Part shown: in pieces, positions 1 to 49,377 of the stretch | How positions within the stretch are numbered: position 1 is the stretch's first letter | How the letters are laid out: each line of letters begins with the position of its first letter | From: Agarophyton chilense | Lineage: Eukaryota; Rhodophyta; Florideophyceae; Gracilariales; Gracilariaceae | Assembly: GCA_030374765.1 (NCBI GenBank) | Contig: JARGXX010000002.1 | Location: forward strand, 1,054,001-1,118,000 | DNA length: 64,000 nt | Direction of reading: 5' to 3' | Translations under genes and position numbers: made by a program | Notes under the pieces: generated by a model | Database searches by the model: none | Seen by the model: only the letters and a program-made list of their open reading frames with translations | Told to the model about the DNA's origin: nothing

Positions 1-21
1 CGACGCCTCCGCCTCGGAGAT

Positions 22-3491: not shown

Positions 3492-3743
3492 TTTCGAGAC
3501 TGATGGCGCTTATATTTGACGTCTTGATCGTGGCTATGCCGCCATGTTTTCTTGCATTGCCCTTTTGCTGCTTGACATATGCAGCATTCGTGATAGCACC
3601 TAGCAATCAGTATTTTTAATGTTGTGTAGTAAACTGCGGAGTGAATGGATGTGAATGGTCACATCTTCGCTTAAACTTAAAACGGTGATGAAAAATCGCG
3701 AAACCATTTTTCAAACCTCTGGCTCCAATGCAAATTGGCTATT

Positions 3744-4013
3744 TCATAATTCCACGTAACCAAATTTTCCGAAGCAGGAACGTTTTGAGTAATTTTCGAT
3801 CTTTTGATCATCATCCCGGCGAATCTGCCCATCTGTACGGTTAATAATGGAAGCTCTTTTTTCTAAACGTTCTCTCAATGAGGCTTCTACATCCACCTCA
3901 TACCGCGACTCTCTCGTATCGGCCGTCGATGCCGCTATGCGCGCACACTCCTCCAACAACGGCCTTTTGCTGCGCAGTGCAGGTTTGCTAGCCTTCCAAC
4001 TTACATAGCGCAT
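3744..4013 (-). CDS. Small ORF, 89 aa, unknown
   Basis: An ATG-started frame encodes a basic, charged, probably helical peptide with a run of Glu, Arg and Ala in its middle. It lies back to back with the relic that begins near 4035 on the other strand. There is no recognised domain and no homologue in the window. It may be chance. Confidence 0.2.
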   Translation of the reverse strand: MRYVSWKASKPALRSKRPLLEECARIAASTADTRESRYEVDVEASLRERLEKRASIINRTDGQIRRDDDQKIENYSKRSCFGKFGYVEL

Positions 4014-4034
4014 TCCTGCCCCTCACACTGACAG

Positions 4035-5920: not shown

Positions 5921-6959
5921 CATAACGCTCGAACCAGCCTTGGCGAATTGAGTAGTGCTATGAACAAAAGAGCATTCTCTGCGGAAATGATGGCGGACGA
6001 AAACAAGTTGCAAGTCGCCTTTGCTGGATCTCATGGTCGATCGTAATCGTATTTTTCGGTTTTGCAACAACTGGAACTAGATGTGTTGTCTGGCTGCGAA
6101 AAATGGAGGAGAAAAAAACATAGTTCTAGACAGTCACAGAAAATCGGGCTCATTCAGTGCACTGAACACGCTATGTACCATCTTCAACCGTGCCAGCAGC
6201 AAATTGAGCGTACTTCCCCACCACTATCCCGTGGCTTCCACAAACGCCAGCCACTAATTACGCCAAATGCATGTGCTGCACTGAGACGGCCTCCACCGTG
6301 CAGATCATATCGGCATTCGGAACCATGGACAGCTTTCCAAAGTGCGCTGTCATGATGCACCAGTATTCGACAGACATGCGTCTTGGCACGGAGCTGACGG
6401 CGTGCAGCAATTTCAAGATGAACAGACACTCCACTGGACTCTGCAGCGCGCCCTTAAGCGTTAAGAACACGCTGAGCGCCGAGTGCACGACGAAGACGGT
6501 GACAAGCAGTGACGATACGCGCGCCCGAAGCTTCTTAACAATACCAAAGATAGTTCATTTTTACAGTAGCTTTTGTTATGAACGATATCTGTTTATTCAT
6601 AACCTGCGTCCTGGTGTTGACGGCAGCGCTTTAAGAAACCAAGGAAAGATCGAGATCGAGAATGTCCAAGCATGTCCGATGTTTTTTAGGGGTTCGGATA
6701 CGCTTTCAAGTCGAGTCGTTTTTCCATGCGCACACAGGTTTTGTGGTGAATGAATATTGCGCATGATTACGAATAACAATTTAATGTCAATGCGCAAAAG
6801 AAGGAAAGGGAAGAAGAGCAAGTCAGACTTTATAGGAGGGAGAGATCTTTGACTGCCAATCGTCCGAGACAGACAGGCAGTTTGGATGATGCAGTTTCAC
6901 TGGCGGGAAACCGTTTGCAGTTTTCCATTCCTGAAATTTTCTGCCTTCTTCGCGAAAAC
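5921..6959. other. No firm gene; one open frame 6271-6753
   Basis: The frame at 6271-6753 (plus, 160 codons) and an overlapping minus frame at 6258-6488 are both open over a stretch with higher GC. Neither shows a known motif. The minus frame is hydrophobic and could be a membrane protein remnant. I cannot support either as a real gene. Confidence 0.2.
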
Positions 6960-7035
6960 TAAGTGGCGTGATATCTTAATGGTCCGTCGTAGTCGGCTGT
7001 GGACCTAATTTCACTGCTACCGTGGCGAATATCGA

Positions 7036-9590: not shown

Positions 9591-9979
9591 GTGGGAGCGA
9601 ATTGGAGAGGCCGATGGGAGAAGAAGTGGGAATGGTGGGTGCAACACAAGGAGTATTAGGAGACGTGAACTAAGGTAACAGTTTAATGAATGGTTTTGCA
9701 CCTGGGTCCCGATAGAAACGGTTGAGGTAGAAGCGGTGGAATCGCCATTCGAGGCGTGGTGCGAAAGGGTGAGCGGGGTAGTTCTTGCGGAGAACAGGAA
9801 CAGAGCTGAGGATGGAGGAAGAAGGGATGAGACCGAGCCAAGGGGAGACGTTGTCAGAGATTGAGGCTGAAGAGATGGGTGCAGGGTGCCCTGTGTGGTT
9901 GTGTTCGTAGTCCGTGGCCCAGCGGAGGGAGATTTAGTGGAGGGTTTGCTTAATTTTGTCCCTTGGGGGGACTACCACC

Positions 9980-12942
9980 AAGAACTAAACGAATACGAGT
10001 TCCGTGGAGGTTTTGGGGGTGTTTGTTGATGAGAGTCGAATGAGGGAGTTGAGTTTGCATACCCAGATGCTGAGGGAAGAGGTGGAGAAGGTTTTGCTGG
10101 CGATGATGACGTGTGAAAACGTTGGAGACTTGGAGGGACCGAAGGAGGGAGCGGCGAAGATGCGTTGGATGACTGGGATGGTGGGATCCTTGAGTGCAAT
10201 TTTGTTTTGATTCGGCCGGTTATCCTGTATCGTGGGAATGTATCCACCGACGATGTACACGGACTTTACTACGGTGAGATGGAAGAGACGGATGTCGGGA
10301 TGGTGATCGTGGAGGAAAAGTGTTTCGAGGGAGAGCGTGATGAAGGAGGGGAGTGCAGTGGTTGCTGTTTGCGAGAGATTGGAAATGGTATCTGGAGAGA
10401 AGAGGTCTTTGAGGGAGGATGGGTTGGAGAGGGGGTTTAGGCGGAGGAGCCTGTGTGCGGTGAGGAGGTCTGAGAGTGATACGGTTCTGCCGTCACGGAT
10501 AGAGACGGGCTGAAGGGGTGTGAAAGGAGTTTGGGAGGAGGAGGAGGAGAAAAAAGGGTGAGAGGGGATGGGGTTCCAGTGCTGGAGTGCGTGCGACCGG
10601 TCGATGTCGCGTATGGTTTCGGTATGGGCGGCGGATCGTTGCCTGGAGGTGTGGCGGTAATGAGCTTTGAAGAGGGTGTGGGCATTTTCGTAGATGCCAG
10701 CATCGTTGGAGTGGAGGCCGCCGTATTTTGGAATGTCTTCGACAGTGTGATCGAGGAGGTGGAACTTGAGGGTGCCGAAGTTGGAGGCGTGGTGGGGGCC
10801 GAGAGTGGGGACTGCCGCGAGTTTGAAGGAGCGAATGTGGTCCTCTAGTTTGGAGAGTTTATATGCTGTCCATTCTGGAACGGTGTTCTAGGGCATGAAC
10901 ATGAGGAAGAGGTCTGTGTATTTGGTGATGACGGTGGTGATCGGGGCGGTTTGTACCTCGTTGCAGCATCGGTCGATGAAAGCGCCGATGAAGGGAAAGA
11001 TCATATGGAGAGCGCGGTAATCTTTGGATTCGAGCATGCCGCGTATGCCTTCTGGAGTGAAAAATCCGTTGAGGTTACGAGCGCTGTCGGAGGTGGAGAA
11101 GTTGATGCGGAGGCCTTGGGCGGGGGAGTGAGCTTCGATCGCGGCGAGAATGGAGTTTGAGTGGTTGAATATGGACGTGCGGACGGACATGAAGGAGCGT
11201 GAGGTGTTGGAGGGGCCGATGATGGTGAAGAGAGACTCGGACGTGAGCCTTTCGGTGGCAGTAATATGGATGAGCTTGGAGATTCCGAGGTGGAAGTTTT
11301 GGAGCGGTTCAAATGCGAAGATGCTGTAGGGGGTGAGCTCTTGGGATATGGTGTGAAGGTGCTAGGATTCGAGAATAGAGCTGTATTTCGCGAGGGATAC
11401 TTCTTGGAGGGCTGTGAGTGCTTCCTATTTCTTGGTGCGGGCGACTCTTGGTTTTCGGGAGAGGTGCGCCTGTTCAGAATCATGGAGTAGAGAGGCGTGC
11501 AGCTTTTGAGTGTTGGATGCGTGATTGGGGGTGCAGGAGGGAGCGTTGGGAGAGGGTTCGGGGAGGTGGAAGCGAGTCAGGAGACATCAGTGTCAGGGTC
11601 TCTTGGGGCGTGTTCCGTGGGAGATGGCGAGGATGTCCTTGGCCTCGAAAATGCCTGCGCAGTAGCTTGCAAGGACTGGGTGACATTGGCGGAGAACTTT
11701 GTGAGTGTCGCGGAACGGGAAGCCGAGGAGACCGGAAGAGAGAAGGGGCTCGAGGACAGTTTTGATGGCGGCTTGTGTGACTTCCATTCTTGTTTCGCGA
11801 TGGATATCTGCGGGCGAGCGGAGGATAGCGTCTGCTTCGGGGGCAGATGCGGTGGGTTGGAAGGAGGTTGGGAGGTACACGACGAATGTGAGGTTTTGAT
11901 AGATGCGTTTTTGTCTGAAGCAGTCCGAGAAGTTGGGAAGGGTGATGTGAGGGGGGTAGGAGGTGATGGAGCAGGCAGGCTTTGAGAGAGGTGAAGGACT
12001 TGTCCGAGTACAGCTGTATGAAACCAATGAAGGAGTCTATTCAGGTTGTGTGGGGGCAGTGCCACATGATCTTGTCGTTCTTGGACTGCATGATGGCGGA
12101 TTTTAGTTCGGGGAAGACGTTGTGCCCGAGAGAGGCGGCCATGGGGTGAGCGAAGTCGGGGGAAGCAGATTGTGACTTTTGGGCGATGGGGTGGAAGAAG
12201 GAGTTGTGGTGGTGAGCAAGGGAGAGCTGACGTTTGAGGACATCGATTGGGTTTTTGAGGTAGACGTTTGCGGAAAGGCGGTTGAGAGTGTCGGTGATGG
12301 AGTGTGGGACGAAGCCGAAGGAACTGATGCGGTGCTTGAAGAGGGTTTCCTGGAGCTCGATGTTTTGGCGGACGGAGGAGATGGTTCGCTCGAAGGTTGA
12401 CTTGGAGAGCTTGAATCGTTGAGGATGTCGATGAGCTCGTCCACTTTTCGATGGCCGAGGTTGGCAGCAATGGAGGAGATGTAGAGCACGAGCTGCTCTA
12501 CTTGTGGGTGTTCGAATATGGGGGTGAAGGGGGGCTTGGGGACTGGGCCTGAGGATGAGACGGAGCAGAGAGGACTTTTAACGAAGTGGTGTGCGTCTGC
12601 GGTGTAGAGAAAGGGCATGTTGCAGGTGGTGGTAGGAGTCCAAATCTGCGAGGAGGACATTACCGGAGGGGCGGTTTGAGGGGGTGAGAGGGGCGTGCAG
12701 TTGAGGAGTGGACTTGTGGCGCTTTGTGTGTGGGAGGAAGTGGGTTGTGGTTTGTTTGGGCGTGCGTTATGTTGGGGAGAGCCGGTGAGGGCACCTTTGT
12801 TGGTGGCTCTGTAGGGCAGGAGTGGTGCAAGCGAAGAAGGAGCAACGGGAGAAGCAGCAGCGAGGCATGGTGTGGAATGCAGGGGGCGCGTTAATGCGGA
12901 AGAAGGGAAAAGAAGCAGGGGGGCGTAGAGGTTATGGCGCAT
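9980..12942 (-). pseudogene. Copy A Plavaka-like transposase, decayed
   Basis: Minus-strand frames reproduce the copy B transposase in order: a Ser/Pro-rich start at 12942, the VLYISSIAANLGHRK block near 12450, SYPPHITLPNFSDCFR near 11950, AKDILAISHGTRP near 11620, the FGALHSND-like region near 10720, and a C-terminal block ending near 9980 with IQRIFAAPSFGPSK and WVCKLNSLIR. The frame changes several times, so it is dead. It shows which residues are conserved: where copy B has a TGA at 16309, copy A has an Arg codon. Confidence 0.65.
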
Positions 12943-13379
12943 GGGGTGCGGTGATAAATGTATGGGGAGAGTTGTGGGGGATGCAGTTCACGTGATGCAG
13001 GGCTGTGGAGAGGACTCGAGACGGACTGGGGGCACTGACTACTGCGGTGTGGAAATATGAAAATTTGGCTATGTGCCGCCGATGTGCCAGATTTCTATTC
13101 CTATTTTAATATTTATTGCCATTTCCAGGCTTCATTTACTATTACGCGAACATGAGTGATGGTAGCGAATTTTTGAAACACATGTCTAATGTTTTAGTAG
13201 GCCCGTCTGATTGGGGCTCGCCAAAACTTCGAATTATGCAGTTTTTTACTGGTTAAGTTTCACTAAGAACTAGCAACTTTGAATGAGTGAAGTTATTTTA
13301 GAAATTATTGAACCGCAAAAACGAAAAAATTCGCGGGTTTTCTATCCATTTTAGTTCGTCCGTTTTTGACGCCTAACGT

Positions 13380-13382
13380 CAG
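13380..13382. repeat. Possible target-site duplication CAG, left
   Basis: The three bases CAG precede the left terminal repeat and also follow the right one at 26426-26428. CACTA-group elements make 3-bp duplications, so this fits, but a 3-bp match has a 1 in 64 chance. Confidence 0.45.
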
Positions 13383-13401
13383 TGTTCTCGGAATGCTAGT
13401 T
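13383..13401 (+). repeat. Left terminal inverted repeat of copy B
   Basis: Nineteen bases that match the complement of 26407-26425 without a mismatch. The next G outward also pairs with a C at the far end, so a 20-bp repeat is equally possible. Confidence 0.8.
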
Positions 13402-13600
13402 CAGTGGTCAAAAAAGGACGAATTGAAATGACCGAAAAACCCGTGAATTTATCCAAATTTAGAGGTGTTAATTTCCGAAAATATTTTCATTCGTTCATTA
13501 GTGCTAGTTTGTATGGGAAGCAAAACTAGCACATATCTGCAGTTTTTCTAGTTTTGATGGAGGTAAAACTAGCGTGAATCTTTCTGTCGCCGCAGTTTAA
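13402..13600. promoter_or_regulatory. Left subterminal motif cluster
   Basis: Copies of CTAGTT or AACTAGC occur near 13502, 13523, 13549 and 13567. The same motif recurs inside the right end at about 26320, 26358 and 26382. In CACTA elements such clusters bind transposase. The region also aligns, inverted, with 13260-13380 of copy A. Confidence 0.55.
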
Positions 13601-13774
13601 AGGTAAAAGTAGAGAAGTGGTGCAGGAGCAGATTCAATCGTTGTGCGCTCTAGATTGACAGATTAGTACAAACAACCGGTCCCAAAATGGACCTCAAAAT
13701 AGAAATTGAACATTTAGTACCATCCATATCAATCGCAATAGAATCGCAGCCCGACCTGGCAGACCTCACGTGCC

Positions 13775-16700
13775 TTGCATTCTATATTATTCTCCACCGC
13801 CCTCCCCTGTCACGTGCCCTGTGTGCGCCATACTCTCTCTCCGTCTACGCCTCCTACTAACTTTATTCCCACCACCTCTCCTCCACCCAGAGAAATCCCC
13901 GCCCTCCAGCAGCACCAGAGAAGGTGCCCTCATCGCCTCTCCGCCAACAAGCGCTTCCTCTACCCTGGCGGAAATGAACCCAACTTCCCCCCCCGTACAA
14001 AACGCCACAAGTCCACCTCACAACTCCCCCCTCATCCTCCTCCCTCACATCGCCCTTCCGACAACGTCCCTCACGCACACCATGACTTCTACCTCCAAGA
14101 CCAGCTCTCTCTCTCCCTCCACACCCAGGACGCCATCCACGTCGCCACTGCCCCTCTCGGTTCCCCCTCCTCTCTCGCTCTCTCCCCCCTCCCTCCTTCC
14201 GCTCCCCCCCTCGACAACCCCCACCTGCAGAAAATGGTCCTCTACATCTCCTCCATCGCCTCCAAGCTTGGACAACGAAAGGCTGAAGAGCTCATCACTC
14301 TCCTTAATGATCCCCACTTCTCCGAATCAACATTCCGGAACTCAGTCTCCTCCGCAAAGCAATGCCTCGAGCTCCAGGCAGACCTCTTCCACCAGAGAAT
14401 CAGGTCCAATGGTTTCGCCCCCTCCACCATCTTCGATCCCCACAAACGCTTCTCCGCAACCCTCTTCCAGAAAGACGCAATCCATGTCCTAAAACAACAG
14501 CTCGCCCTCGCACACTTCAAGAACACCTTTTTCCACCCCATCTCCCAAACATCCGCCTCCGGCTCCCCCGCCTTCGCACACCCCATGGCAGCCACCCTCG
14601 GCTCAAAAGTCGTCCCCGCACTCAAGACAGCCATCATGCAGTCCAAAAAAGATAACATCGTCTGGCATCTCCCTCACTCCACCGGTATCGACTCCTTCAT
14701 CGGCCTCGTCCAAATCTACTCCGACAAGTCCTCTACCTCTCTCAAATCTTCTTCCATCACCTCCTACCCCCTCCACATCACCGTTCTCAACTTCTCCGAC
14801 TCCTTTCGCCGCAAATTCATCTCCGACAATCTCACACTCCTCGGCTATCTTCCCACCTCCTTCACCCCAATCACTCCTTCTCCAGATGCAGATATCATCA
14901 CTCATTCCTCCTCCATCCCTCGCCAAACAAAAATGGAACTCATACAGCAGACCATCTCCTCCCTCCTTCAACCTCTCTTCTCTTCCGCCCTCCCCGGTTT
15001 CCCCTTCCGCGACGCAGACGGCGTTCTTCGTCAATGCCACCCCATCATCGCCAGCTACTGCGCAGACATTCCCGAGGCAAAGGATATTCTCGCCATCTCC
15101 CACGGCAAAGGATTCTCGCCATCTCCCACGGCACCCGTCCCCAGCACCCCTGCCACAGATGCTCTGTCCCTCGCTTACAACTCCACCAACACTCTCACGC
15201 CCATCCCCCTCGATCTCTTCCCCTCACCCTTGCAGCCCGCAACAAACACTCCTCCCTCCTCAAGGACTCCGAAGCAGCTCTCCTCGCCCGCAAGCCAAGA
15301 GTCTCGCGCAACTTCAAGGAACAAGCTCTCCAAGCACTCCACTCCCTCTCCCTCGCAAAATACCCCTCCCTCTTCGAGTCTTACCCCCTTTTCAACATCA
15401 CCCCCCTCCTCACCCCATACAACATTTTCCCGTTCGAACCCCTCCACAACTTCCATCTCGGCGTTTCCAAACTCATCAAGCTCGCCGCCATCGAACGTCT
15501 CAGATCAGAACACCTCTTCACCACCATCAGCTCCACAAACTCCCGCCGTTCTTTCCACTCCGTCCGCACCTCCATCCTCAAGCACTCCAACTTCATCCTC
15601 ACCGCCATCGAAAATCATTCCCCAGCTACCGGCCTCCACATCGACTTCTCTACTTCCGAAAGCGGGCAGTCCCTCAACGGCTTCTTCACAACTGACGGCG
15701 TCCGCGGCATGCTAGAAGCAAAAGACTACCGCGCCCTCGACATGGTCTTCCCCTTCATCGGCGCCTGCTTCGACCGCTGCTGTGACGAAGCCAATTCCGC
15801 TCCCATCACAACCGTCTTCTCCAAGTACACAGACCTCCTCCTCACCTCCATGTGCTACAACTCCGTCCCCGAATGGACCACTTCTCGTCTTGCCAAACTC
15901 GCCTCCCAAATCCATTCCTTCAAGCACAGAGCTGTCGATGTTCTCGGTCCATACCATACCTCCAACCTTGGCACCCTCAAATACAACCTCCTCGATCACA
16001 TCGTAGACGACATTCGACGCTTTGGGGGTCTCCACTTCAACGATGCAGGCATCTTCGAACAAGCCCATACCCTCTTCAAAGCACATTACTTCCGAACCTC
16101 CAAGCGCAGACCCACCGCGCACAACGAAACCATCCGTGCCATCGAACGCTCCGATGCCGTCAACAATTGGATTTCTCTCTCCGCTGATCCTTCTGTCACC
16201 TCATCCTCCCATGCCCCTCCTCCTCCCTTCAAAGCCCGCAGACCAGGTTTCGTCCGTGATGGCAAGCACACCTCCTTTTCCGATCTCATCACCGCTCACA
16301 AATTCCTTTGAGCAAACCCCCACTCAACAATCTCTTCCCTTCAGGACCTCTTCTCCCCAGACACTATCACCATCATCTCACAGATTGGAATTCTCGCACT
16401 CCCCTCCTTCGTCACACTCACACTCGAAACACTAGCTCTCAACCAGGACTCCCCCACTCTCCGCCAAACCCGTCTCACATTCGTCAATTCCGCATACGTC
16501 GTCGGCGGCTTCACCCCAACCCTAGACGACTACATCGCCGATCGAAACGAGCTCGCCGTCAAAGATCCCCCTCTCCCACTCATTCAACGTATCTTCGCTG
16601 CTCCCTCCTTCGGTCCCTCTAAACTCCCAAAGTTCTCCCACATCCTCGTTGCCGGTTACAGCTTCTCCAACCCCACTCCCACCGCCTGGGTTTGCAAGCT

Positions 16701-17172
16701 CAACTCTCTTCTTCGCTTCATTACCCCTTCTTCCCCTTCCACTCATAACGAGTTCGCCTTCGTTCAGTTCCTCGAACTCGTTCCACCCCAGGATCAAGTC
16801 GATGTCTCTCTCAATTGCATCTGCCTCCAATGGGCAACAGACGACGAACAAAACCACACCGCCCACCCCCTTCCTATCTCAAACACTTCCAACTCCGACA
16901 ACGTCTCCCCCTGGTTCGGCCTCATACCATTCTCTTCCATTCTCGGCCCCGTTCATGTACTTCGCCAAAACTACCCCGCACCCTCCTTCACCCCTCGATT
17001 GCACTGGCGCTTCCATCGATTTTACCTCAACAGATTCTACAGAGACCCAACTGCCAAGCCCTACTTCTCCAACACCACCACTGGTGACACAACACCACCA
17101 CTGGTGGCACAACACCACCACTGGGTGGCACCCATAATAATACCTCCCAAGGCACATGATCCAATAAAATAG
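13775..17172 (+). pseudogene. Copy B Plavaka-like transposase, lightly damaged
   Basis: This is a DDE-type transposase of about 1,120 residues. Family landmarks in order: SDK at about 14728-14740 followed by a YPLHITVLNFSD block (Plavaka proteins have SDKTQ and YPVYLTIGNI at this place), LLGYLPT near 14840, an acidic CADIPEAKD near 15060, a CHRC pair near 15150, and NIFPFEPLHNFHLGV near 15425 (the PLHxxxLG signature). The C-terminal block, 16312-17172, holds WVCKLN and FGLIPFSSILG. Two lesions are visible. A 26-nt repeat of the AKDILAISHG coding segment at about 15086-15138 shifts the frame, and a TGA at 16309-16311 stands where copy A has Arg. The start is the ATG at 13775. Transcription converges on the coiled-coil gene. 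The exact catalytic triad was not resolved. Confidence 0.7.
17067..17130. repeat. Three tandem 20-21 bp units in the transposase tail
   Basis: Three copies of an AACACCACCACTGGTG-like unit lie in the last codons of the transposase. Each contains the palindrome CCACTGGTGG or a variant. They may be simple slippage. Confidence 0.6.
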
Positions 17173-17246
17173 TCACCGCTGCTTTTCTTCCATAGCCGAC
17201 CCCCATCTTGCTCCACCTCCTTACCCCCTTATCCCCCCGTACCTTA

Positions 17247-19901
17247 TCACTCTCCCACTCCTTGCCTACTCCACAACGTTAAGTGCTTGAACCGTGGTTC
17301 TTCTGGTCCACATGACGCTATATAGCAATCTAACACCGCTCCAAGTCTTCTCGTGAGATTCTCCATGAAAAACTCCTCCCTTCTCGCCAGATAGATTTTC
17401 TCTCTCGACGGTATCCATAGCCCAACCGTCGCGATTCTCTCCTTATTCCCACTCACATCTCTACGACTCCGTCCACAGAATCCATCATTCTCAAACTCCT
17501 CGGCATACTCATCCTTCACCATGTTCCAGGCAACCCTCAATATGTCCTCAACAGCCAGTGGCAGAAACCTCCCAAACAGCGTCGAGAACAAAAGTTGCCT
17601 TTGGCCTCCCCGCCCAACGTCTCTATCCATCGTGGTCACCACACATCCAATCCATGCATCAAGTCGCGCAAGATGCATCACCGTCCCATCCACATACTGC
17701 CTTTCTCCATTTCTGTGACTCTCTACCGCGTAGCCCATAAACTCCTCCAACACTTTCAACGACACCTGATTTCGAAAATACATATCTGCCTCACCAAAGT
17801 CCTCCAAGTTCTCAGACACCTTCGATCCAGAATAAGTAATATCTTCAATCGCACTCGTTCTCCACGCACACAGCTTACCTCTCCCATCCTCACCAGACCC
17901 CATCAACTTCACCTGCGCCTCCTCAATCTGCTTCTTCAACTCCGCCCAAAGCTCCGTCCCTTCAGTCACCTTAGCTCGTTTCGCGATCAAATCATATCCA
18001 AGCATGGAAAACAGCTTATCACGCGCTGCTCGCTTCCGCACCCCAACCACATCGCTCAATGTCTGCTTCATCCTCTGTCTTAAGCACCTATCCGCACTTA
18101 CATTTTCCACGCACTCCTCTCTCCTCCCCGCTTCCCTTATTGACTCCCATTTCCCTCCCATTAACTCAGTCTCTACCACGTGCTTCAACAACAAATGGCT
18201 CCCGCCCTCTGTCGACGGCGTATACGGTCTCATCTCATATGCAACCTCAATTGGACATCTCGGAACCATTTCCTTCTCTCCCACCACAAACATACTTTCC
18301 TCCCTACTCTCCCCAACCGCCTCACTTCTATTCTTCCAGCTTCGACCCACCTTCTCGGTGTCGAAGCAAAGTTCCGATGCCTCCAGTTTTGCACAATGAA
18401 GAATCCTATCATACACACGACGTGCAAATCCATAAAAGCATTCCTGCACTCCAATGTCATACTTTCGTCGCCGCGTCACGCCTCCCTCCCCCCTCCCTTA
18501 CCCAGCGATTTTACATTTCAACGCCTCCCTCAAACTCTCAATCAGCACATTCTGCTGCTTCATTTCCTCCCTCGCCCGATCCAGCTCCGTTTGGGTCATT
18601 TTCAAACTCACCATCACACTGTAGCTGTCTTCCTTCATACGTCTCATTTGTCCCTTCAACACATTCATCTTCTCAATTAGCATCGACCGCGGCAACAAAC
18701 CTATGTCATCATCATTTGCTTCATCTTCCACTATACGGACGGCGTTCTCCACGACATTTAAATTCGCATTCTCCCCGTTATCATTATTCTTTGTGAATAA
18801 AATGTTTCTCCTTACTCGAATACCTTCCGGCGTCCTTCGCCTTGCGCTCACCTCAAACCCTTCAACTCCCAAACCCACCCCTCTCCTCGGTGGCAAACAC
18901 TCGACATCTTCTCTCTGATGAGAAAGAACTGCTGCTCTTCCATCGCCTTCCTCCCCTGAACCACGTGTTCTCCCTCCAGCAAACCCCCTTCTCCCCCCCT
19001 CACTCACATGCACTTCTCTGCTTTCCCTTTCGTCTATCGCTCTTCTTCCTGTAACTCGAACACTCCCCATTCTTTCCCTTGCACGCTCTCTCCTTTCTTC
19101 CACGTAATCCAAGTTCGCCCCCTCCCATCTTTCCGCCTGTTCCCCCGCGGTAACTCCAACACTCTCTCCTTCTGTTCTCTCTCGAACGACTTTTGCGCCC
19201 GCGATTAGACCACTACTGGGTCCATCTATTCTACCCTCCCCACCACGGCTACTCTCTATTCTCCCTTTCTGTATCTCATCATCACCGTCCTCTTCCCTCA
19301 TACCCGTAAACGATGCCCCTGCTTCTTCAACGCCTCTGAGGCGGGATCCACGTTCTCCGATCATTCTCTCTCCCTCCTTACGCCCCTTCGTCTTCTCATT
19401 CGGAATCTCTTCACCTCCTTCAGGTGCAGAGCATGGATTTACCGGCTCCACATCAGCTGAAGAAGTGAGTACAGCACTTAGAGTCCGCTCGGATGCATCC
19501 CTCTCCTTGTCCTCCCTGGAGCTCTGCTCGCCCTCCCCCGCAATCCACTTCTAGGTACACGCGTGCGGTTGCTTCGCACGCTATCCCGTTTTCCATCGCC
19601 GCTCCGCACCATCTCTCCCGTAGGCGACGTGATTTGCTCCGTACGCGACGTGATTTGCTCCGCACTCTCCTCCGTCGCCGTCTCCTTTGCGCGAACAGCC
19701 TTTCCTTTGTCCCCACTCGCCTCTCCTTCCCCACCATATTGCCTTGATCTACCTCTCAGGCGCACGCCTCCCTTCTCTCCACTCGCGCCCTGGAGCCTAC
19801 GCCCCTTGTCCCTTCCGCCCTCCGCATCCCCTCCATGCCGCCGTGATTTTTGTACCGCGCCCGCTAGTGTTCTCGCTTCTCGATTTGCGCTTCGGAGCCA
19901 T
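17247..19901 (-). CDS. Coiled-coil companion protein of the transposon
   Basis: Two long open blocks, 19451-18498 and 18497-17247, are in the same frame and separated by one TAA at 18498-18500. The coding sequence may begin at the ATG at 19901, whose first residues (MAPKRKSRSENTSGRG) resemble the copy A start, but the frame between 19901 and 19451 is not continuous. The first half is Arg/Glu/Gly-rich and disordered. A coiled coil at about 18680-18510 ends in LIESLREAL. The second half is a conserved globular region of about 400 residues with GIGVQE-like, RQRMKQTLSDVVG and RLGAVLDC segments. No known domain recognised. Conservation between the decayed copy A and this copy argues for a transposition or maintenance role. 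The TAA lies in GGGTAAGGG, which also resembles a splice donor. Confidence 0.6.
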
Positions 19902-20225
19902 GGTTGAAGAGAGAGAGAGCGATCGTGGTATGGTCTTCCACGCGTTGCAATGCGATGGATGGGAGAGAAGCTTCGAAACATTCTGCTTTCAAAAATATAC
20001 CTCCACCCTTTTCGTGTTCTCAGAAAACCCCCAAACTTTTCAGATATTTTAAATATGCGCTCGAATGCACCAGATATTGGAAAAGTATTCTCCTTCGGTG
20101 TACATGACTTTCCTTTAGCATATTTACTACGTCACGCTTTGACGTTATATGTAGCGACAAACATAGTAAAAGCCCACAATATCTGGTACACTACGATGAA
20201 GTAAAGTAACAAAAGCGATGCACTT

Positions 20226-23200
20226 TTAATCGATTACTATGACTGGCGTGTTATTCATACTCCAGATATACTCTGTCCCATAATCCGCGAACAGCTCCTC
20301 TCCTATTTCTATATCTCGAATTGCTTGCACAGAAAACAATCTATAGTCTCTCAACTGAAATGGGGTCCGCCCCGTCCCCGGAGTTCTGATGACCCGAACA
20401 TTTGCAGTTCGGCGTCTCATTAACCCGTCTTCAACCGCATCCCTGTCCCTATCCCCTTCCACATACTTGGGGTCGTTAATTGTTCCCCCCAGGCAAAATG
20501 GAGCAGGGACAATCCACACCGGAATAAGAGACACCCCACTAATTCTTCCTGGTAGCTTGTGAAACACTTCCCCTCGGACGCTTATCTCCATCGCGTACTG
20601 CCGAAAACGATCAGCAGTCGCTTTCAATAGCCCCCCTCCGTATGCCTTATGAACTTCCTTCCGCTTTGAAAGATCATGGTACACCAAAGTCCCGTAAAAG
20701 TAACAATCAGTCTCACCTTGTATCACCCGGCGTGTTGTGTACACACCAACTCCAGCATTTGCAATCCGACAACCACATACTGTCGCCTCCACTGCCAGAA
20801 TAGCATTCCAATCCAACAGTGACATCTTTCCTTGAAAACTTCTTGGCCACTCATACAGCGCCTGCCGTCGCCCAATCTCCGATATATTCTTATCCTGCCA
20901 CATGGAGGAGAGAAAATCCACGATATGGGGTGGAAACATCTGATGCTCGGGAAATCCGGTAGGTGTTTTCCAGGGCTTCGAACGCTTTATGACGACGTCC
21001 GGAAACAAGCATGTCACTCGAGTCACAGCGTTCCGAACATCTTGCGTTATATGAATGTCCGTCTCGTTGTTCCGCATGCATGACGCAAATTTCACTGGAG
21101 CGGCGTGCTTCGCATGAGCAAAACACTGCGGATCTGGCTCAAACCCTAGAAACGGACGGTGCTTTTCCAGTTCCATGCATGCCATGGCCGTTGAAAATGT
21201 TCCGGGGAAGAGGTCCACCACTATGTCTCCCGGCTGAGAAAACCTGCTGATGAGCTCCTTCAGCAAAGCGCGTGACTTCTGTTCCGCCCGCACTTTCTGA
21301 TACGTAACTGCTCCTTTGACATTCTTCCTTCTCCATAGAAGTGTTTCACCATTCGACATGGGAGGCACTTGGTCAATCACGCTATGGTAACCCGGATATC
21401 GCGATGGTACATAGCTGAAGTTCTCATAGTTCACCATGCCATGTTGTTCGGCGTAGGACAACCCGCTGCAAACTCCATGAATGGCGTACTCTGTTCCGGG
21501 AAACAGGGAGCACGAACTACGTCCGGGATTACGCATCGGATTGCCTTGAGAGCGAGTGAAGTGCAGCTGGACCTTGTCCACGACAAACGACCTGCTCTTC
21601 TGTCCATTCTCATCTTTTGCACCAATTCGACCCAACACTTCTTTCCATTCGTTCACCTGCTCAATCTCGCAGAATATAACGAAATGCCCTCCCGGACGCA
21701 GAAGTTTAGAGATGAGCTTCGCCGTCTTCACCATGTCTTGCCGGTTAAGAACGTCGTACCAGCTGTTTTTCCTGTTCTTCTTCGCACGTATATTATACGG
21801 CGGGTCCGTGAGAACCAACTGCACTTTCCCTATCGGAGAGACCCCATTGCTGCGCAATGTCTCGTCAATCTCCACCAGGTTCTCGAAAGTACAATTGTAC
21901 ATTCGACAGTGCTTATCCATCTCCGACTCGCACTTTTGAAGAGACATTATATCATCCAGAGAGGTAAGGTCGTGAGACGGCAGAATATCCACCGACTCAG
22001 ATTCAACCGACCTTGGTCCAGCTGTGGAAGAATGCTGACCAACACCCATGTTCTCTTCCTCATTCCCGGTCCCACCCTCCACTCCCTCTCCACCCTCCAC
22101 CGCCGGAACCTCCGAATCTTTCTCAGGGGGTACAACTTCTATCTCGTCTTCTTCCATAACCATAGTAGGTTCCGCCTTTGTCGCAGCCACCACTTCCACC
22201 TCCACACTCCCTCGCAGCTTTAGCGGCGATATGTATTCCGAGATGGTAGAGATAAGAGAGTTCGAGAAGCAGTCGAATCTCTCCGCAAACACTCTAGGCA
22301 AAGTGTATGTAAACGGTTTTAGAACGTCCCATCTTTCCGGAGCTGATAAAGAGTAAAGCTGCTCATTCACCACCACTTTGTGCAGGTCAGCGAGAAACTC
22401 TTTGGCCAACATACGAAGTGGAGTGTCAACGTACTCCGGCAGGTTCCACGCCTATGGGACGACATACTCCTCCAATAAAGTACGGTTTCTACCAGGAAGG
22501 AGTCGTTGGGCCATATCCTTGTGAGAGAACCCATCCCTTCTGTTTCCGATTGCCTGGAACTGCATATCAGAATATCGTAGATGAATAAAGCGCAAAACCA
22601 TGAATTCCACGCCAGGGAATCCCAAATACTGGGCGAAGCTGTCCCACGCGTTATTGACGAGCTGCACACCAAAGCCCACACGCTGAGCTACTGGTTTGTC
22701 ATAAATCGCCACCTTCGAAAATGGCGTATCGTAGGTTCTGTCCCGCTTTCTTCGCTTACGGGAGACTCTTCTCTTCTCCATAGAGACCGACTGAATACAA
22801 ATGAGGAACAGCAACCTCTGGAACATTGTCGGGAAGTCGGTCGTGAATGGAGCCCGGCTTTTGCTCGCCTTCTTTTGGGTTGTATCCAGACCTTTGAAGA
22901 ACTCTGTCAAATTGACATTCTTCGGGATGCCCTTGAACTCCACCGCCTCGTACGCGTTCCAAAAGTCCCTCACGTGCCTATCTGGGTCCCCATCCCTTAT
23001 ATCCAACAACCTCGCCGAGAAATAATTATGACAGTTCGAGCCCCTCATTCATACAACTCGGAGCTCATCTTCTGTGTAATTGGTGTGGTAGGGACCTAGG
23101 AGAGTATAAAAAAACTTCGCGGTCTCCGGTAGGATGTGGCGATTGGCAATTGCAAAATCCATGAATGCAGTGTGCCCCACTTTTCGCGGCTCATCTTCCT

Positions 23201-23336
23201 CCCGCCTCGTTGATGCGTAACGATCACGCAAATCCAGACACGCCCTGATAACTTCATCCCCCGTACCAAACAGTTTACCCATTTTGAAGGTGTCTGCCGC
23301 AGGCGATGAAGAAGTTCTCGTGGGTTCTGGAGCCAT
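20226..23336 (-). CDS. DNA adenine/cytosine-N4 methyltransferase fused to SET domain
   Basis: One frame runs from the ATG at 23336 to 20226, broken only by a TGA at 23049-23051 and a TAG at 22452-22454. The largest block (728 aa, from 22412) has methyltransferase motif IV, TDPPYNI, at residues 202-208, and the AdoMet site GDIVVDLFPGTFSTA at 395-409 followed by FLGFEPD at 421-427. This motif order, IV before I, is that of the beta-class N6A/N4C DNA methyltransferases (N6_N4_Mtase family). The C-terminus is a SET domain: AGVGVYTTRRVIQGE at 553-567, INDPKY at 645-650, and IEIGEELFADYGTEY at 701-715. The N-terminal 300 residues are unknown. It could modify both DNA and a protein, perhaps a histone. 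It diverges from the ParB-like gene across the palindrome array. The two stops suggest recent inactivation or read-through. Confidence 0.7.
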
Positions 23337-23516
23337 TTATGTACGTGTTCAAACAACCTCACGGGCGGTCTTCACGAGAGCCTGAGTGAAAGAGAGCAGC
23401 GGGTGCGGGTGGGTGCGGGTGGGTGCGGGTGGGTACGGAAAGATTGTGAGTACGGTTGAGGAGCGCGCACGGAAGAACGGTTGTTGCGGAACGACTTCGC
23501 AGCTATCCTGGTTGCA

Positions 23517-24030
23517 TTCTGTCGGCCGTCAGAGGAGCGCTTCGACTTCATAGGGGGTCTCGATGAAGTCCCCGCGCACCTCTGTCGGCCGACAGAATGC
23601 ACCGTGTACACCTGGGAGTCCTAAAAATTACAAAATTATATGTATTATGTCGGCCGACAGAGGTGCGCGGGGATTTCATCGGGACCCCCGATGAAGTCGG
23701 AGCGCACCTCTGTCGCCCGACAGAGTGCACCGTGTACACCTGGGCGTTCCAAAATTATATGTATTATGTCGGCCAACAGGGGTGCCCTGCGACTTCATCG
23801 GTCCACCGATGAAGTCGCAGGGCACCCCTGTTGGCCGACAAATACGCCATAACATCACGCATGATGCGTTTCTGAGATGTTGGTCGACTGTCGGCCGACA
23901 GAGTGCACCGTGTACACCTGAGCGTTCCAAAAATTACAAAATTATATGTATTATGTCGGCCGACAGAGGTGCGCCGGGACTTCATCGGGACCCCCGATGA
24001 AGTCGGAGCGCACCTCTGTCGGCCGTCAGG
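23517..24030. repeat. Array of four long palindromes between divergent genes
   Basis: Four hairpin-forming units lie at about 23518-23595, 23647-23722, 23767-23840 and 23954-24029. Each starts and ends in TGTCGGCC-GACA-like 12-bp palindromes, and the centre reads GACTTCATCGG...CCGATGAAGTC. The third is perfect: 36-bp arms with a 2-nt CC centre, and its stem differs from the others at several positions on both arms together. Linkers repeat GAGTGCACCGTGTACACCTGG followed by CGTTCCAAAAATTACAAAATTATATGTATTAT-like sequence. The array fills the space between the methyltransferase-SET and ParB-like starts, where promoters or a protein-binding locus would sit. Confidence 0.85.
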
Positions 24031-24292
24031 ATATTTTTAATTTTTTAATTTTATTTTCTTGTATCGCCTACCAAGCCAATAGGCGTGTTTGCGATGGAAA
24101 GAGACAAGGAGTTTCTTGAGTTTGAAACTAAGCGGACGTAGTTCAGGCTGATTGCAATGAACTGCTCTCGGGAGTGTTCCGGATAGTCGCCACCAAAGGA
24201 GCTCGATCCAATACGTCTTAGTCTGTATACCATAAAAGGCTCAAAGCGCTCTGCGACCATTTGCAACCTCGACTGACTACGATCCGATTCAA

Positions 24293-26056
24293 ATGATGAC
24301 TCGAGGCAAAGCGAAAGCGAGGGGTACTCCGCGGGGTACTCCACGCGCCACTCCGCGAAAAGCTACATCGGGAAACAATCTGGCTGGTGGAGATAGGGTG
24401 GCGTTGTTCCTGGCGGATGGGACAGGGAAGAAGAAGGGTACTATGGTTGGCACTGCGGAGTTGAGAGGTGTTGGGGGCAGTGGAGCGGCCGGGAAGGCGC
24501 TTTGCAGAGCGATGCGTGGCCATACGTTGCGCGAGTCTGCGAAGCCGGGAGAGGACTTGGTGGCCATCTGGAGGACTGAAATTAAGGAGGGGATCAACTC
24601 CAAGTATCCGTACTCCTTCAAGGGAGCAGAGGAGCCGCCGGAGTTGCTGAAGGATATGGTGTCGGCAGGTATATACGCATGGGATACCTCGATGATGACA
24701 CGCGTCTCCTCTGTGCTGACTCCAGGGCCTCCTCGGCCGGAGACTCCCAAAAGCGCGACTCCCTCGAAGGAGTCTGCTACGCCTTTGAGGGGGAAGAGGG
24801 CACAGCCAACAACAGTGCCGCCGGCCATGAAGCAACCCGTCAAGCCGAAAAAGAGGGTCACCATAGAGGATGATTCTGATGAAGATGTTGTGGAGGTGGG
24901 GTCAGCGGTGAATGTACGCGGGGATTCGCACACCGGTCCCGAGTTGGAGTTGTTCGATGACGGCGATGCCGTTCCTTCGCAGGAAGTGGATAGGACTCTC
25001 GTGGAAATGAAGATCTCTGTTTCAGACTATGACCAGTGCCGCTTGATTGTGGACATAGATGACATACAAATCCCCGAGAAGACTGTCAGAAGTGTGAATG
25101 CGGAACACAAGGCGGCGACGATGGCAAAGTGCAAAACTTTTGGCTGGCTTGCGTCGGCAGGGTCGATTGCTGTTGCCATCGTCGGGGGAATGGAATTGGA
25201 TTTCAGTGAAATTGTTCACAATGGGAGGGTAGTGGTGCCTGTCATACTCATTGACGGTCATCACCGCGTCTTGGTTCTGCGAGATCTGAAGAATGATCCC
25301 TCTGAAGGGAGAAAGTGGTTGGAAATTGTGCGGTCTCTTGATGTCGTTCTTTGGAGACGCAAGGACCGGAAGCCTTTATCGCTGAACGAAGTGTTCGGTC
25401 TTGGTAATGTACTCAATGAAATGAGTTCAAATGTGTTGAAGATGAGTTTCGCTGACAAGGTTCATTCGACAGTGTCCTTCATTTGCAACTTGATTGACGG
25501 AAATAGAACCAAGTTGGCTGACCTTAGTCCGACACGGATAGCTGGGGCGCTGACGACAAGCGAAGCTATAGGAATCTACAGCTTGCGCCACTTGAATCGC
25601 TATGCGACTCTTGGGTTGAAATTCGTCAGGAGCGAAGGTCTCCTGGAGTTCTTTGAGAACGTATGCAAGGAGGGTCCAGTGCTAACGCTTGCGCATGTGT
25701 CGAGTGACTTGTTGTTAGGACTCGAAGACGAAATATTCCGTTTCGCAATCCGTTGTTTGCAGCTACATGTGAGGGTGAGGATGGGTTCTACGGGGAATAT
25801 GGGACGTTTCCAGGAGACGCGAAAGCAGTTCTTCCAATGCGCCATAGGAATGTTCCAACTATGCGAAAGGGCGGGAAAGGAGAAGGGTCTGACGGCGGGG
25901 AAGGTTCTAGACAGCACAATTGTGATGGGAAAGAACGAGGTGTCTTTAAGGGAGTACCTTTGCATGCAAACGGCGAAGATGGAGCTCAGTGGTCCGAAGC
26001 GGTTGTGGCCGGGGTTGGTGTCGAAGAGGATGAAAATCGCACGTGGACGAAGTTGA
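24293..26056 (+). CDS. ParB/sulfiredoxin-fold-like protein, 587 aa
   Basis: The N-terminal 240 residues are basic then acidic and low in complexity (repeated GTPRATPRK-like units, then DDSDEDVVEV). Residues 250-335 look like the ParB/Srx nucleotide-binding domain: DIDDIQIPEKTVRSVNAEH, then VPVILIDGHHRVLVLRDL with the DGHHR motif at 321-325, comparable to the GxHR box of ParB and sulfiredoxin families. The helical remainder is unrecognised. In bacteria, ParB proteins use CTP and load at palindromic parS sites; some eukaryotic relatives are nucleases or DNA-modification partners. An open stretch in another frame after the stop (about 26044-26136) could be a displaced C-terminus, so a late frame change is possible. 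Its upstream region is the palindrome array. Confidence 0.55.
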   Translation: MMTRGKAKARGTPRGTPRATPRKATSGNNLAGGDRVALFLADGTGKKKGTMVGTAELRGVGGSGAAGKALCRAMRGHTLRESAKPGEDLVAIWRTEIKEGINSKYPYSFKGAEEPPELLKDMVSAGIYAWDTSMMTRVSSVLTPGPPRPETPKSATPSKESATPLRGKRAQPTTVPPAMKQPVKPKKRVTIEDDSDEDVVEVGSAVNVRGDSHTGPELELFDDGDAVPSQEVDRTLVEMKISVSDYDQCRLIVDIDDIQIPEKTVRSVNAEHKAATMAKCKTFGWLASAGSIAVAIVGGMELDFSEIVHNGRVVVPVILIDGHHRVLVLRDLKNDPSEGRKWLEIVRSLDVVLWRRKDRKPLSLNEVFGLGNVLNEMSSNVLKMSFADKVHSTVSFICNLIDGNRTKLADLSPTRIAGALTTSEAIGIYSLRHLNRYATLGLKFVRSEGLLEFFENVCKEGPVLTLAHVSSDLLLGLEDEIFRFAIRCLQLHVRVRMGSTGNMGRFQETRKQFFQCAIGMFQLCERAGKEKGLTAGKVLDSTIVMGKNEVSLREYLCMQTAKMELSGPKRLWPGLVSKRMKIARGRS

Positions 26057-26309
26057 GAATGCGGTGGTGGACTTCTTCAACCTCAAATACCCTCCCGGTG
26101 GAACGCTGGAACCTAGTAAGCAAAAGGGCCAGTAAGGAGGTAGAAGGTACTGACGACTGCCTTGGTATGGATCTCCACCCAGAGCGGTCAAAAGTGACCA
26201 GTAAACTGCAAATGCAGATTAAACTGCAAATGCAGATTAAACTGCATTAAGTGGTCAAAACACTAAGATGCATGGAGTTCTTATTTCCAAATTTTTTTTT
26301 CAGGTGCCG

Positions 26310-26406
26310 AACTAGCGCAATCTGCAAAATTCTTAGATTTTTTGGCTTTTTATTTACAAAACTAGCTATCTAGCACACTTATCTAGCATTCCGAGAACAC
26401 AGACGA
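26310..26406. promoter_or_regulatory. Right subterminal region with duplicated terminus
   Basis: AACTAGC motifs at about 26319 and 26359 precede an extra copy of the terminal repeat (CTAGCATTCCGAGAACAC at 26383-26400), which is itself followed by CAG. The two termini are 26 bp apart. An earlier tandem motif, AAACTGCAAATGCAGATT, repeats at 26207-26247. Confidence 0.6.
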
Positions 26407-26425
26407 AACTAGCATTCCGAGAACA
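26407..26425 (-). repeat. Right terminal inverted repeat of copy B
   Basis: Exact complement of 13383-13401, followed by CAG. This outer copy is taken as the end because the match to the left terminus is one or two bases longer than that of the inner copy. Confidence 0.75.
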
Positions 26426-26428
26426 CAG

Positions 26429-27779: not shown

Positions 27780-30600
27780 GGCCGGCCCAAAACCGGCCCG
27801 GTTAATATGGGAAAAGAACTTATGCTTCTACCAACTTCATTCTTCTAACCAATTTGTTCACCAGAACTGCCAAAAAATACGGCCTTATCGGGACTGATTC
27901 GTTACCGCCACGTTTTACTATCGCAATATTGAGCATGCCGTAGTGCAGCCACTTTTCGGTTAGCAGGAACATGGTGACATCCAATACTTTTACCTGCAAT
28001 AAGTCCCCTAGCCTGAGATACCTATCAAACAGCAGCAACAATCCTACATCAAGGTCCGGATCCCCGTGTTAGAAACGATCCAATGCCAGTCCATATACAA
28101 CTATTTCCGGACATACGCCAAAATGAAAGTTAGGGCGCGATGCTGTCCAGACCTGTATACTTTGATTTGCCAATACCAATTTCGCGCTGAGTTCGAGGAG
28201 AAAAAATTCCAACGCTGATTCTGCCTGAGCTACAACTCCTGCCTTCAATTACTGATTACCATGAAAAAAATCAATGCAATACCTCGTGAACAATTTATCG
28301 ACTTCTTTTGGCTTCTTACGTCGACGGCGAGCGACTGGTTGTTGCAACAGCCACTCCAGGAAAAACCAAGGTTCTTACGGTATCATTGCAGTGTTGCCGT
28401 ATTAAACCGTCGACGAGCTAGATCAAAAAGCCCGTGACGGTTTATCGGATGGATTCTTCCCACTAGGGACATAAAAATAATCCATTGTCAGGTCACCAAC
28501 CAGTACCAACGCGGCAACGCGTCTGCAAATGTGGTTAAAGATTCGCTTATTGCTACTTCCCTTTAGAAAAGCTTCAAGAAGCGACTGGTTATCAATGAAC
28601 ATAATAATCCGTGTTTGATAATTATCCCGATTCCGAAGAAGCCAACGCAGACCAAGAATGACTGCCTCGCCTTCTAGAATATGTATCGGGTGTTTTTTCT
28701 TCCATCGGTGTCATATCGCAGTTTTCCATTTCTGTTCTTCAACCCATTCAATCCGATCTGATCCCTCGCAAATTTTTAAAGGATCTCGGCACTCGGTGTA
28801 AACTACTCCTTCACCAATTATGCTTGCGTCTGTACAAATTATTGTCTTGTTGAACTGCTTAGACATATTAATCCGGATCAAAGGTGCTGGTTGTGAAGGA
28901 GCAACGACTACGTTTGAGTCCTGTGAGCCGCCAGGGCCTGAGGTATCTTACAGATTCCACGTGGACTGGCCGACCTTCGCTGTACATATTTAGATAATTA
29001 TTTTATTTTGTTTATTGTAACAGGATAGCTTTACCGTGCCCGGGAGATCCCAGCGCCTCGCCATCGACATTTACTTGGCTCGAGTGACGCTTCTCCCTTA
29101 GAATCAAGTAGGCACCGTTAGGATACTGAATTACCCCCTTCGGTACACTAGTTCCACCAATTGGTTTTCAAGCCGTCGTTTTCGTAACTCCGAACTGTCG
29201 GACTACGCAGTAAACGCCCGTCCATTACTCAAAGTTCTCTGGGAGTGCTGCAGTCAAGGATACAAACATTAAGACCCGCTCTAACACGCAACTTCAGGTT
29301 TAGAACAGTACGTGGACCCACCAGTCATTGCGTTGCACTAGCTTTAATAATTATTACAGCTCCTTCCGGCTGACTGCATTGCCGCCAACATATTCTTTGG
29401 TGGAGGACGTAACCGTATATATCCTTTCGAAGACCGAATAAAGCGGCCTCCTTAAGAGCATAAACCACGCCCATTTTCCAACTATGCTTTGTACTCCTCG
29501 CACCTTCCATGTCTTCTTTTTCAACACTTTTCCTGTAATTGTTATCAGCGTTCTCATTTTTTCTCGCTTTGGCATCAATATGCCAAAAATTTCGACTTCA
29601 ATTCCCAGGACTTCTGTGCTCTCTTCTTCCGCAGGCCATGATACTTTTGTCGTCTGCGGAGGCAAAGAGCTACGCTCGGAATCCTTTATCACAGCTCGCG
29701 AGTTTCTTTCCGTCATCTCCTTGCTCGTTTTCATTGAAAAATAATCATCCACGTAAGCTCCAAATTTGTATTCGCCAACGGATATTGAAATCGCTACCCA
29801 GTCGTTCATAGAAAGTTAGCGAGAGCTAGAATTTCTAAAAGGATTTTCTGAGCTACAAAGGCAAATTGGGACCACCCCGTGATCATTGAAAGTATAACGG
29901 GGAATAGTTTTTTCCGTCCAACTTCGATTGGTGATAAACCGAAATACGTACTCATCCATCTCGGTAATTTCATTCGATGATATTGGTTGTCCATATCTGA
30001 CTTTCCACCACAAAGCGATCGTCCTGCCGGGATTTGTAATCTCGCTAGATGTACTGGGTTAGGAAGCTCGATCTTTGGTGGGTCAATAAACTGAAGATTA
30101 GCGTTCTGGCGTCAAGTATAAGCCTTATTTTTTCCTCTTTTTTGGGAGCGCAAAAATGCTATTCACAACTTTCGGTTTTCTTTCCCTCAGATCTACTAAA
30201 CCGCCTTCAACCAGTTCCCTAACCAGTGCCATGTAGTCTTTTGTATTCACTCCGCCAAACGGCTTCTTCGCTCCTTTCACCTCTTCATCTTCTCGAATAA
30301 TATTTCTAGTCATGTATAGTAGCTGTATATCTCCCGGTAGTAATGAGATAGTATCAGCCGAGGCTGCCAGACTATTTTCTGGCAATGATACTCGGTCCGG
30401 ATTTAGCCAGACCCATTGATGTGGGTCATTGTATTCCAACGTAGAATCAACCTTCCTCACGGACTTCTCCGCAACCAAATAATTCCGGCGAATTGAGTCC
30501 GTCCCGATGCTTTTCAAGATATTGCTCGCCAGGCTTTGGACAGCGTTTCTCTCTTGTGCAGGTAGAAAAGGGTAGATATGCCTGGCACACAAGCAATGAA
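27780..30600 (-). mobile_element. DIRS-like tyrosine-recombinase retroelement, broken fossil
   Basis: Reading leftward on the minus strand, the parts are: an N-terminal reverse transcriptase region (about 30592-30125), a reverse transcriptase core with a YVDDY box (about 29809-29354), an RNase H domain (about 28700-28440, with HILEGEAVILGLRW and YVPSGKNPSDKPSR), and a tyrosine-recombinase-like segment (about 28041-27820, with YLRLGDLLQVKV). This order is that of DIRS-type elements, which integrate by a recombinase rather than a DDE integrase. The copy is broken in many places and is old. Its ends were not defined. Confidence 0.6.
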
Positions 30601-49345: not shown

Positions 49346-49377
49346 TTCCCCCCAGTTGCAGCAAGCTCTTGCTGCAA

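Follow-up and report, generated by a model that had tools for sequence, protein, structure and literature searches.

In a 64,000-nt stretch of the Agarophyton chilense contig JARGXX010000002.1 (hereafter the window; all coordinates are window positions), we describe a segment of ~13.0 kb that is delimited by a perfect 19-bp inverted repeat and holds four genes: a Plavaka transposase, a putative coiled-coil companion, a gene for a bacterial-type amino-methyltransferase with a probable SET domain in the same frame, and a fourth gene. The best explanation, to which we assign a probability of about 0.5, is that the segment is one cut-and-paste transposon of the Plavaka type (CACTA/EnSpm-related) of ~13.04 kb, in which the methyltransferase-SET and fourth genes are a cargo that would mark the element's own chromatin.

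Ends and gene content of the element

The left terminal inverted repeat, TGTTCTCGGAATGCTAGTT, lies at 13383-13401 on the plus strand and begins with TGT, and its perfect match on the minus strand at 26407-26425 forms the outer right end. Matches to this terminus with up to three mismatches occur three times in the 64 kb, against 0.01 expected. An inner right copy with one mismatch is found at 26381-26399 (minus strand), and the right end is built of two 26-bp units in tandem. The inner repeat is also directly followed by CAG, and its pairing with the left end is longer (30 nt, 90%). The right boundary may therefore lie at 26399 as well as at 26425, where the perfect repeat ends. The trinucleotide CAG stands directly outside both outer ends (13380-13382 and 26426-26428) as a putative 3-bp target-site duplication; a 3-bp match arises by chance in about 1 in 64 cases and is weak evidence alone. 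The motif AACTAG/CTAGTT is clustered at both ends, with 8 of its 25 window sites in 354 bp, namely 13383-13600 (five sites, spanning 13396-13573) and 26290-26425 (three AACTAG sites, spanning 26310-26412). One further site (13268) lies in the facing end of a decayed related element that adjoins the segment on its left.

All four genes are enclosed by these ends. An earlier note on this DNA had described the perfect 19-bp terminal repeats, the subterminal CTAGTT motifs, the flanking CAG and three other genes within the same ends as the transposase, and each of these was recovered in our analysis. It had placed the element at 13383-26425; the left end and the perfect repeat stand, and for the right end 26399 has to be considered beside 26425.

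Transposase and coiled-coil companion

The transposase gene occupies 13775-17148 on the plus strand, with an uncertain start codon. It matched the Pfam family Plavaka (PF18759) at 64.7 bits (1.1e-17) over a cut-off of 26.3, which bears out the Plavaka-type transposase of the earlier note. Plavaka was the sole Pfam match of this piece, and no Harbinger or MuDR transposase was found in it. By eye, the acidic residues were assigned to D 14723, D 15065 and E 16057, with CHRC at 15151-15162. The CMCT group is reported to have three acidic residues, of which the second D and the E enclose C(2)C and H(3-4)H (PMC12730594); the histidine pair seen by eye in our sequence is H(2)H (15442-15462), compared with H(3-4)H in the Plavaka/CMCT definition. 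PlavakaA elements are described as having TGT..ACA ends and a 2-bp target duplication, with a duplication of 2-3 bp in PlavakaB and 2-5 bp in the wider group (PMC12730594). The element studied here has TGT..ACA, which are inverted ends of the PlavakaA type.

The transposase is read in one frame at 13775-15114 and in another at 15115-17148. The frame is shifted by a 26-bp tandem duplication (15086-15133, plus strand), visible as identical 22-nt copies at 15086 and 15112, 26 bp apart, and a TGA stands in frame at 16309-16311. No Pfam family was matched by the part that follows the frameshift, scanned as far as the TGA at 16309-16311. For the 3' part of the transposase the stop test is weak, with 1 stop against 9.0 expected and a simulated minimum of 0, since the composition makes stops rare there. 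Both transposase pieces are 58-60% identical to the transposase of the left neighbour.

The companion gene (17247-19550, minus strand) converges on the transposase gene. Two ORFs (open reading frames) that had been taken separately are one frame divided by a TAA at 18500-18498, and the frame of the left relative is open at this position. The start of the gene is uncertain, and more stops are met upstream of it in the same frame. The name coiled-coil is putative; it comes from the earlier note and from our own reading of the sequence, with Pfam matches to coiled-coil proteins that are weak and below the cut-off.

As it stands, this copy could encode an intact transposase only if its lesions were removed by splicing or bypassed by readthrough. 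The lesions may be short introns, but the left relative lacks both the TAA at 18500 and the 26-bp duplication, and it has a sense codon opposite the TGA at 16309. The comparison with this relative covered the lesions of the transposase and coiled-coil genes, while for the two stops in the methyltransferase-SET gene the relative offers no counterpart. An altered genetic code was also considered; each of TGA, TAG and TAA is found in frame and each also terminates other long frames in the window, which speaks against it.

The methyltransferase-SET gene

The methyltransferase-SET gene runs on the minus strand from an ATG at 23336 to 20226, a frame of 1036 codons with an in-frame TGA (23051-23049) and TAG (22454-22452). 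The 728-residue ORF of the earlier note (20226-22412) is the 3' part of this frame. For its composition 46.8 stops would be expected, and the minimum in 2000 simulations was 25. The two stops observed are far below this expectation, and the gene was therefore a coding frame until recently.

The N6/N4 amino-methyltransferase domain (21111-21824, minus strand) matched Pfam N6_N4_Mtase (PF01555) at 63.5 bits (3.6e-17; cut-off 26.7) over residues 197-434 of the 728-residue ORF. The motif TDPPYN (21809-21792) comes before the S-adenosylmethionine (SAM) motif DLFPG (21215-21201), and this order, DPPY and then the SAM motif, is that of the beta class. It is reported that DPPY is the form for bacterial N6-adenine (N6A) enzymes and SPPY that of most bacterial N4-cytosine (N4C) enzymes (PMC8885841). 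Relatives in the PDB are bacterial amino-methyltransferases, the best being the adenine enzyme DpnA (7.5e-10), with the N4-cytosine enzyme PvuII lower in the list (0.00046). In PHROG, the methyltransferase matched phrog_67 at 1e-21, a family that includes gp173 of Acinetobacter phage BS46. The two proteins share 27% identity in an alignment over nearly the full length, and only QK is retained of the HPTQKP stretch of the phage enzyme in this pairwise alignment. When the ORF was searched against phages, one record matched, again BS46, and a search with the alignment of both proteins returned 17 prokaryote loci among 116 stretches, with the best segments at 21-41% identity. The NCBIfam matches were far under their cut-offs. 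No match was found for the ORF in viral contigs or for the methyltransferase-SET protein in plasmids, and the 198-residue N-terminal piece, the transposase alignment and the 19-bp terminus likewise gave none in viral contigs. By its motifs and relatives, the domain is a beta-class N6/N4 amino-methyltransferase of bacterial type, with a predicted activity on DNA.

SET domains carry the motifs G-x-G, N-H and GEEL..DY. At 20277-20753 (minus strand), the same ORF contains an opening GVGVYTT, then IND and a closing GEELFADYG, with ND in place of NH, and the match of this segment covers the entire 105-position Pfam model. We regard it as a probable SET domain. The methyltransferase and SET regions share one open frame (20226-22412) with no stop between them. 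The earlier note had proposed an N6A/N4C-type methyltransferase fused to SET; the methyltransferase and the common frame are supported, and the SET half of the proposal is probable, its score lying just under the Pfam cut-off as described below.

The fourth gene and the hairpin array

The fourth gene (24293-26056, plus strand) is an open frame of 587 residues with IDGHHR at 25250-25267. It contains no stop in 587 codons, where 24.5 are expected and the simulated minimum is 11. The earlier note had called it ParB-like, a reading that our searches did not bear out. The protein had no match in Pfam, PHROG or NCBIfam, and its best PDB hits were unrelated chains (E 0.16). For comparison with ParB_N, 12 domains were collected from five of the seven bacterial genomes searched, 10 of which were used in hhalign. 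The probability was 0.2% for the segment and 0.1% for the whole protein, equal to the 0.2% and 0.1% of two control proteins from the window. With hmmsearch --max, neither the fourth protein nor its segment obtained a score, while 136 of 200 shuffled sequences did (top 4.6 bits). A search of the seven bacterial genomes matched in one, over 43 residues at E 0.168, which was taken as chance, and no relatives were found in viral contigs, genome contigs or phages. The single-sequence AlphaFold2 model had a pLDDT (predicted local distance difference test) of 36.4 and is uninformative. The ParB identity was rejected as unsupported on Pfam, PHROG, NCBIfam, PDB, hhalign and hmmsearch, all single-sequence tests that leave room for a very remote relation. 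A possible link is through phages that have a ParB domain fused to such methyltransferases. The one phage protein examined closely has 254 residues and consists of the methyltransferase region alone.

Between the divergent methyltransferase-SET and fourth genes lies an array of four hairpin units of 74-75 bp (23497-24060). The hairpins are near-perfect and spaced, and a single unit folds at -53.8 kcal/mol as DNA. The palindrome TGTCGGCCGACA has four copies in the window, all of them within the array, and GTGTACAC has five, of which the array holds three. The array may represent nested foldback repeats or candidate binding sites. This arrangement bears on a different role for the cargo, in which the modification aids transposition itself, and not chromatin silencing, by labelling donor DNA, or DNA that has just been replicated, for use by the transposase or by the fourth protein. 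The fourth gene does diverge from the methyltransferase-SET gene across the array, whose four copies of a 12-bp palindrome are possible binding sites, but the fourth protein is without family assignment and the 19-nt hairpin motif (up to three mismatches) is confined to the array, with no copy in the left relative or in any other part of the window. We consider such an aid to transposition the least probable of the readings weighed here.

The left neighbour and the origin of the cargo

The left neighbour (7990-13370, minus strand) is a decayed related element outside the 13-kb segment, in opposite orientation and with a transposase and coiled-coil gene only. The two stand head to head, with the conserved end of the neighbour 12 bp from the left end of the element. 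The reverse complement of the element is similar to 8204-12820 (69% over 3.2 kb and 65% over 1.2 kb), and the facing ends are 71% alike over ~105 bp (13407-13509 compared with 13370-13268). The neighbour's frames contain many stops, and its termini and outer end were looked for and not found. Nine pieces of the element were compared with the window on either side of it (1-13382 and 26426-64000), with E up to 0.01. Five transposase and coiled-coil pieces matched the stretch of the left neighbour only, and the four pieces from the methyltransferase-SET and fourth genes had no match. The neighbour is a relative and not a copy, and it neither proves nor refutes that the four genes move together. 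It has the core only, and the methyltransferase-SET and fourth genes are therefore an optional cargo, not universal in this lineage.

Base composition changes between core and cargo. GC skew is -0.42 to -0.58 across 13.9-19.3 kb, mirrored in the neighbour by +0.44 to +0.53 at 8-13 kb; it passes through -0.35 and then stays between -0.22 and +0.24 from 19.9 kb onward. At the fourfold sites of the transposase, 2% are G and 62-65% are C, a pattern seen in neither the cargo nor those host genes that were measured. The strand asymmetry at 13901-19300 and 8001-13000, with a GC skew of about -0.5 and +0.5, is extreme in itself.

This seam fits a cargo added onto a core, and it fits a foreign insert equally. 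It is possible that the structure is a composite or nested insertion, in which the true element is a 6-kb core of transposase and coiled-coil gene, and the stretch at 20.2-26.06 kb, whether an independent element or a set of captured host genes, came into this copy alone and is no working cargo. The core-only neighbour, the shift of skew at ~19.3-19.9 kb and the hairpin array of unexplained origin at 23.5-24.06 kb speak for it. However, no other terminus (up to three mismatches) is present near 20 kb, where a smaller core would end, no clear repeats frame 20.2-26.06 kb (the best local scores between 19451-20300 and 26051-26382 are 18 direct and 18 inverted), and both cargo genes show coding constraint. 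We hold a composite insertion to be unlikely, and the most probable of the alternatives.

Proposed role of the cargo

Returning to a single Plavaka element, we propose that its core consisted of the transposase and the coiled-coil companion and that two divergent cargo genes were acquired later, the whole then moving as one unit. The transposase would cut at the TGT..ACA ends, and the coiled-coil protein perhaps binds the subterminal motifs. In CACTA elements, the subterminal motifs are bound by TNPA. When the element is intact, its fusion protein would most likely mark it with DNA methyl groups, on adenine or possibly on N4 of cytosine, and with methyl groups on histone lysines, and these marks would keep the element transcribed or competent to move.

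An active mark is proposed because N6-methyladenine (6mA) is reported to lie downstream of start sites, between nucleosomes with trimethylated lysine 4 of histone H3 (H3K4me3), in eukaryotes that encode AMT1 (PMC12695648). A protein that couples a 6mA writer with a SET domain could accordingly make chromatin more open. A benefit to the element is proposed because fungal transposons have repeatedly taken up TET/JBP genes and Phytophthora transposons SET genes (PMC12730594); this published precedent is in line with a cargo that may counter silencing, as the earlier note had proposed. In a more specific version, one protein would write 6mA and an active-type histone mark on the same chromatin as two layers of a signal to stay on, aimed by the fourth protein or by the palindrome array. 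We consider this version rather unlikely.

The opposite outcome has also to be weighed, that the fusion writes a repressive mark of the host type and the element restrains itself, being quiet and tolerated. In bdelloid rotifers, N4CMT, a beta-class methyltransferase with a chromatin domain, is reported to deposit N4-methylcytosine at active transposons (PMC8885841), which argues for such a role. On the other hand, N4CMT has SPPY (PMC8885841), compared with the DPPY of the bacterial N6A form in our sequence, and it is a host gene, not a transposon cargo. Self-restraint is improbable in our view.

Several observations weigh against a single Plavaka element with a chromatin-marking cargo. The element is represented by a single copy, with lesions in three of its four genes (transposase, coiled-coil and methyltransferase-SET) and only the fourth gene open. 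The Plavaka model was matched only at positions 111-236 of 325, and the 3-bp CAG duplication differs from the 2 bp of PlavakaA, fitting PlavakaB or the wider group (2-5 bp). The SET region scores just below the Pfam cut-off of 22.4 bits, with 18.1 bits in the whole ORF (E 0.0037, residues 554-712) and 22.0 bits as a segment (E 0.00023). No SET structure was found in the PDB for the segment with phmmer (one unrelated chain, E 0.19) or for the whole ORF, and the single-sequence fold of the segment has a pLDDT of 32.0 and is uninformative. The PDB relatives of the methyltransferase comprise N4-cytosine as well as adenine enzymes. Robust 6mA has been tied to AMT1, an MT-A70 enzyme, and not to beta-class enzymes such as the one found here (PMC12695648). 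The base skew of both cargo genes departs from that of the core, which is compatible with a separate origin.

Should the proposal be true, the fusion would be a natural tool to ask if 6mA and histone marks act in a coupled way as causes of open chromatin. It would also illustrate a path along which methyltransferases of bacteria come into the epigenomes of eukaryotes.

Other features of the window

The content of the window is eukaryotic, with a trithorax-like PHD/FYR/SET protein, APC8, a Myb protein and a copia-type reverse transcriptase. The Myb protein is probably of the SHAQKYF type, and a Deg-type protease presumably has a plastid-like N-terminus, a mix that would fit an alga. A copia-type retrotransposon at 49017-54163 has identical 296-bp direct repeats at both ends, and it is therefore probably a recent insertion. 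Fragmentary ORFs at 29354-30592 (minus strand), one with YVDD, are perhaps remnants of a reverse-transcriptase element, and they gave no Pfam match up to E 0.01. The same holds for an open frame of 369 residues at 36085-37194 (plus strand). A lytic polysaccharide mono-oxygenase is encoded at 60388-61959 (plus strand; Pfam LPMO_10, 1.8e-15). Rfam and tRNA scans of the window gave no match.

Comparison with known systems

Accessory chromatin enzymes in DNA transposons are known already. Kojima (2025, PMC12730594) reported Plavaka transposons that carry TET/JBP in Agaricales fungi; the earlier note, too, had linked fungal Plavaka and KDZ elements with such genes. They resemble the element described here in combining a Plavaka transposase with a DNA base-modification enzyme on a DNA transposon. 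They differ in having a TET/JBP dioxygenase and CATCA..TGATG ends (PlavakaB), whereas our element has a methyltransferase with a SET-like region, TGT..ACA ends and a 3-bp CAG; in the Pfam scan, which covered eight proteins, none matched a TET/JBP dioxygenase. In Phytophthora, SET genes are carried by HarbingerS and MuDR transposons (cited in PMC12730594). These share a SET histone methyltransferase on a DNA transposon, but they belong to other transposase superfamilies, and the citing passage mentions no fusion with a DNA methyltransferase.

The bdelloid N4CMT shares the union of a beta-class bacterial amino-methyltransferase with a eukaryotic chromatin domain, which in that host gene is a chromodomain (PMC8885841). 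The giant repeats of the protist Amoebidium resemble our element as large, intron-poor clusters of genes associated with a Plavaka transposase (PMC11244446). They reach up to 50 kb and have tyrosine recombinases, and the section of that paper on them describes no methyltransferase-SET gene. The phage DNA methyltransferases (phrog_67, BS46 gp173) are the closest match of the methyltransferase domain, at the 1e-21 given above, but these are phage genes and the BS46 protein has no SET domain.

In a search of the open-access literature, with subscription papers and Repbase Reports mostly outside it, no amino-methyltransferase-SET fusion in a transposon appeared in the titles or abstract openings among the matches listed. 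From one damaged copy with one borderline domain, our comparison suggests that a Plavaka element with an amino-methyltransferase and a probable SET domain in a shared frame is a new combination.

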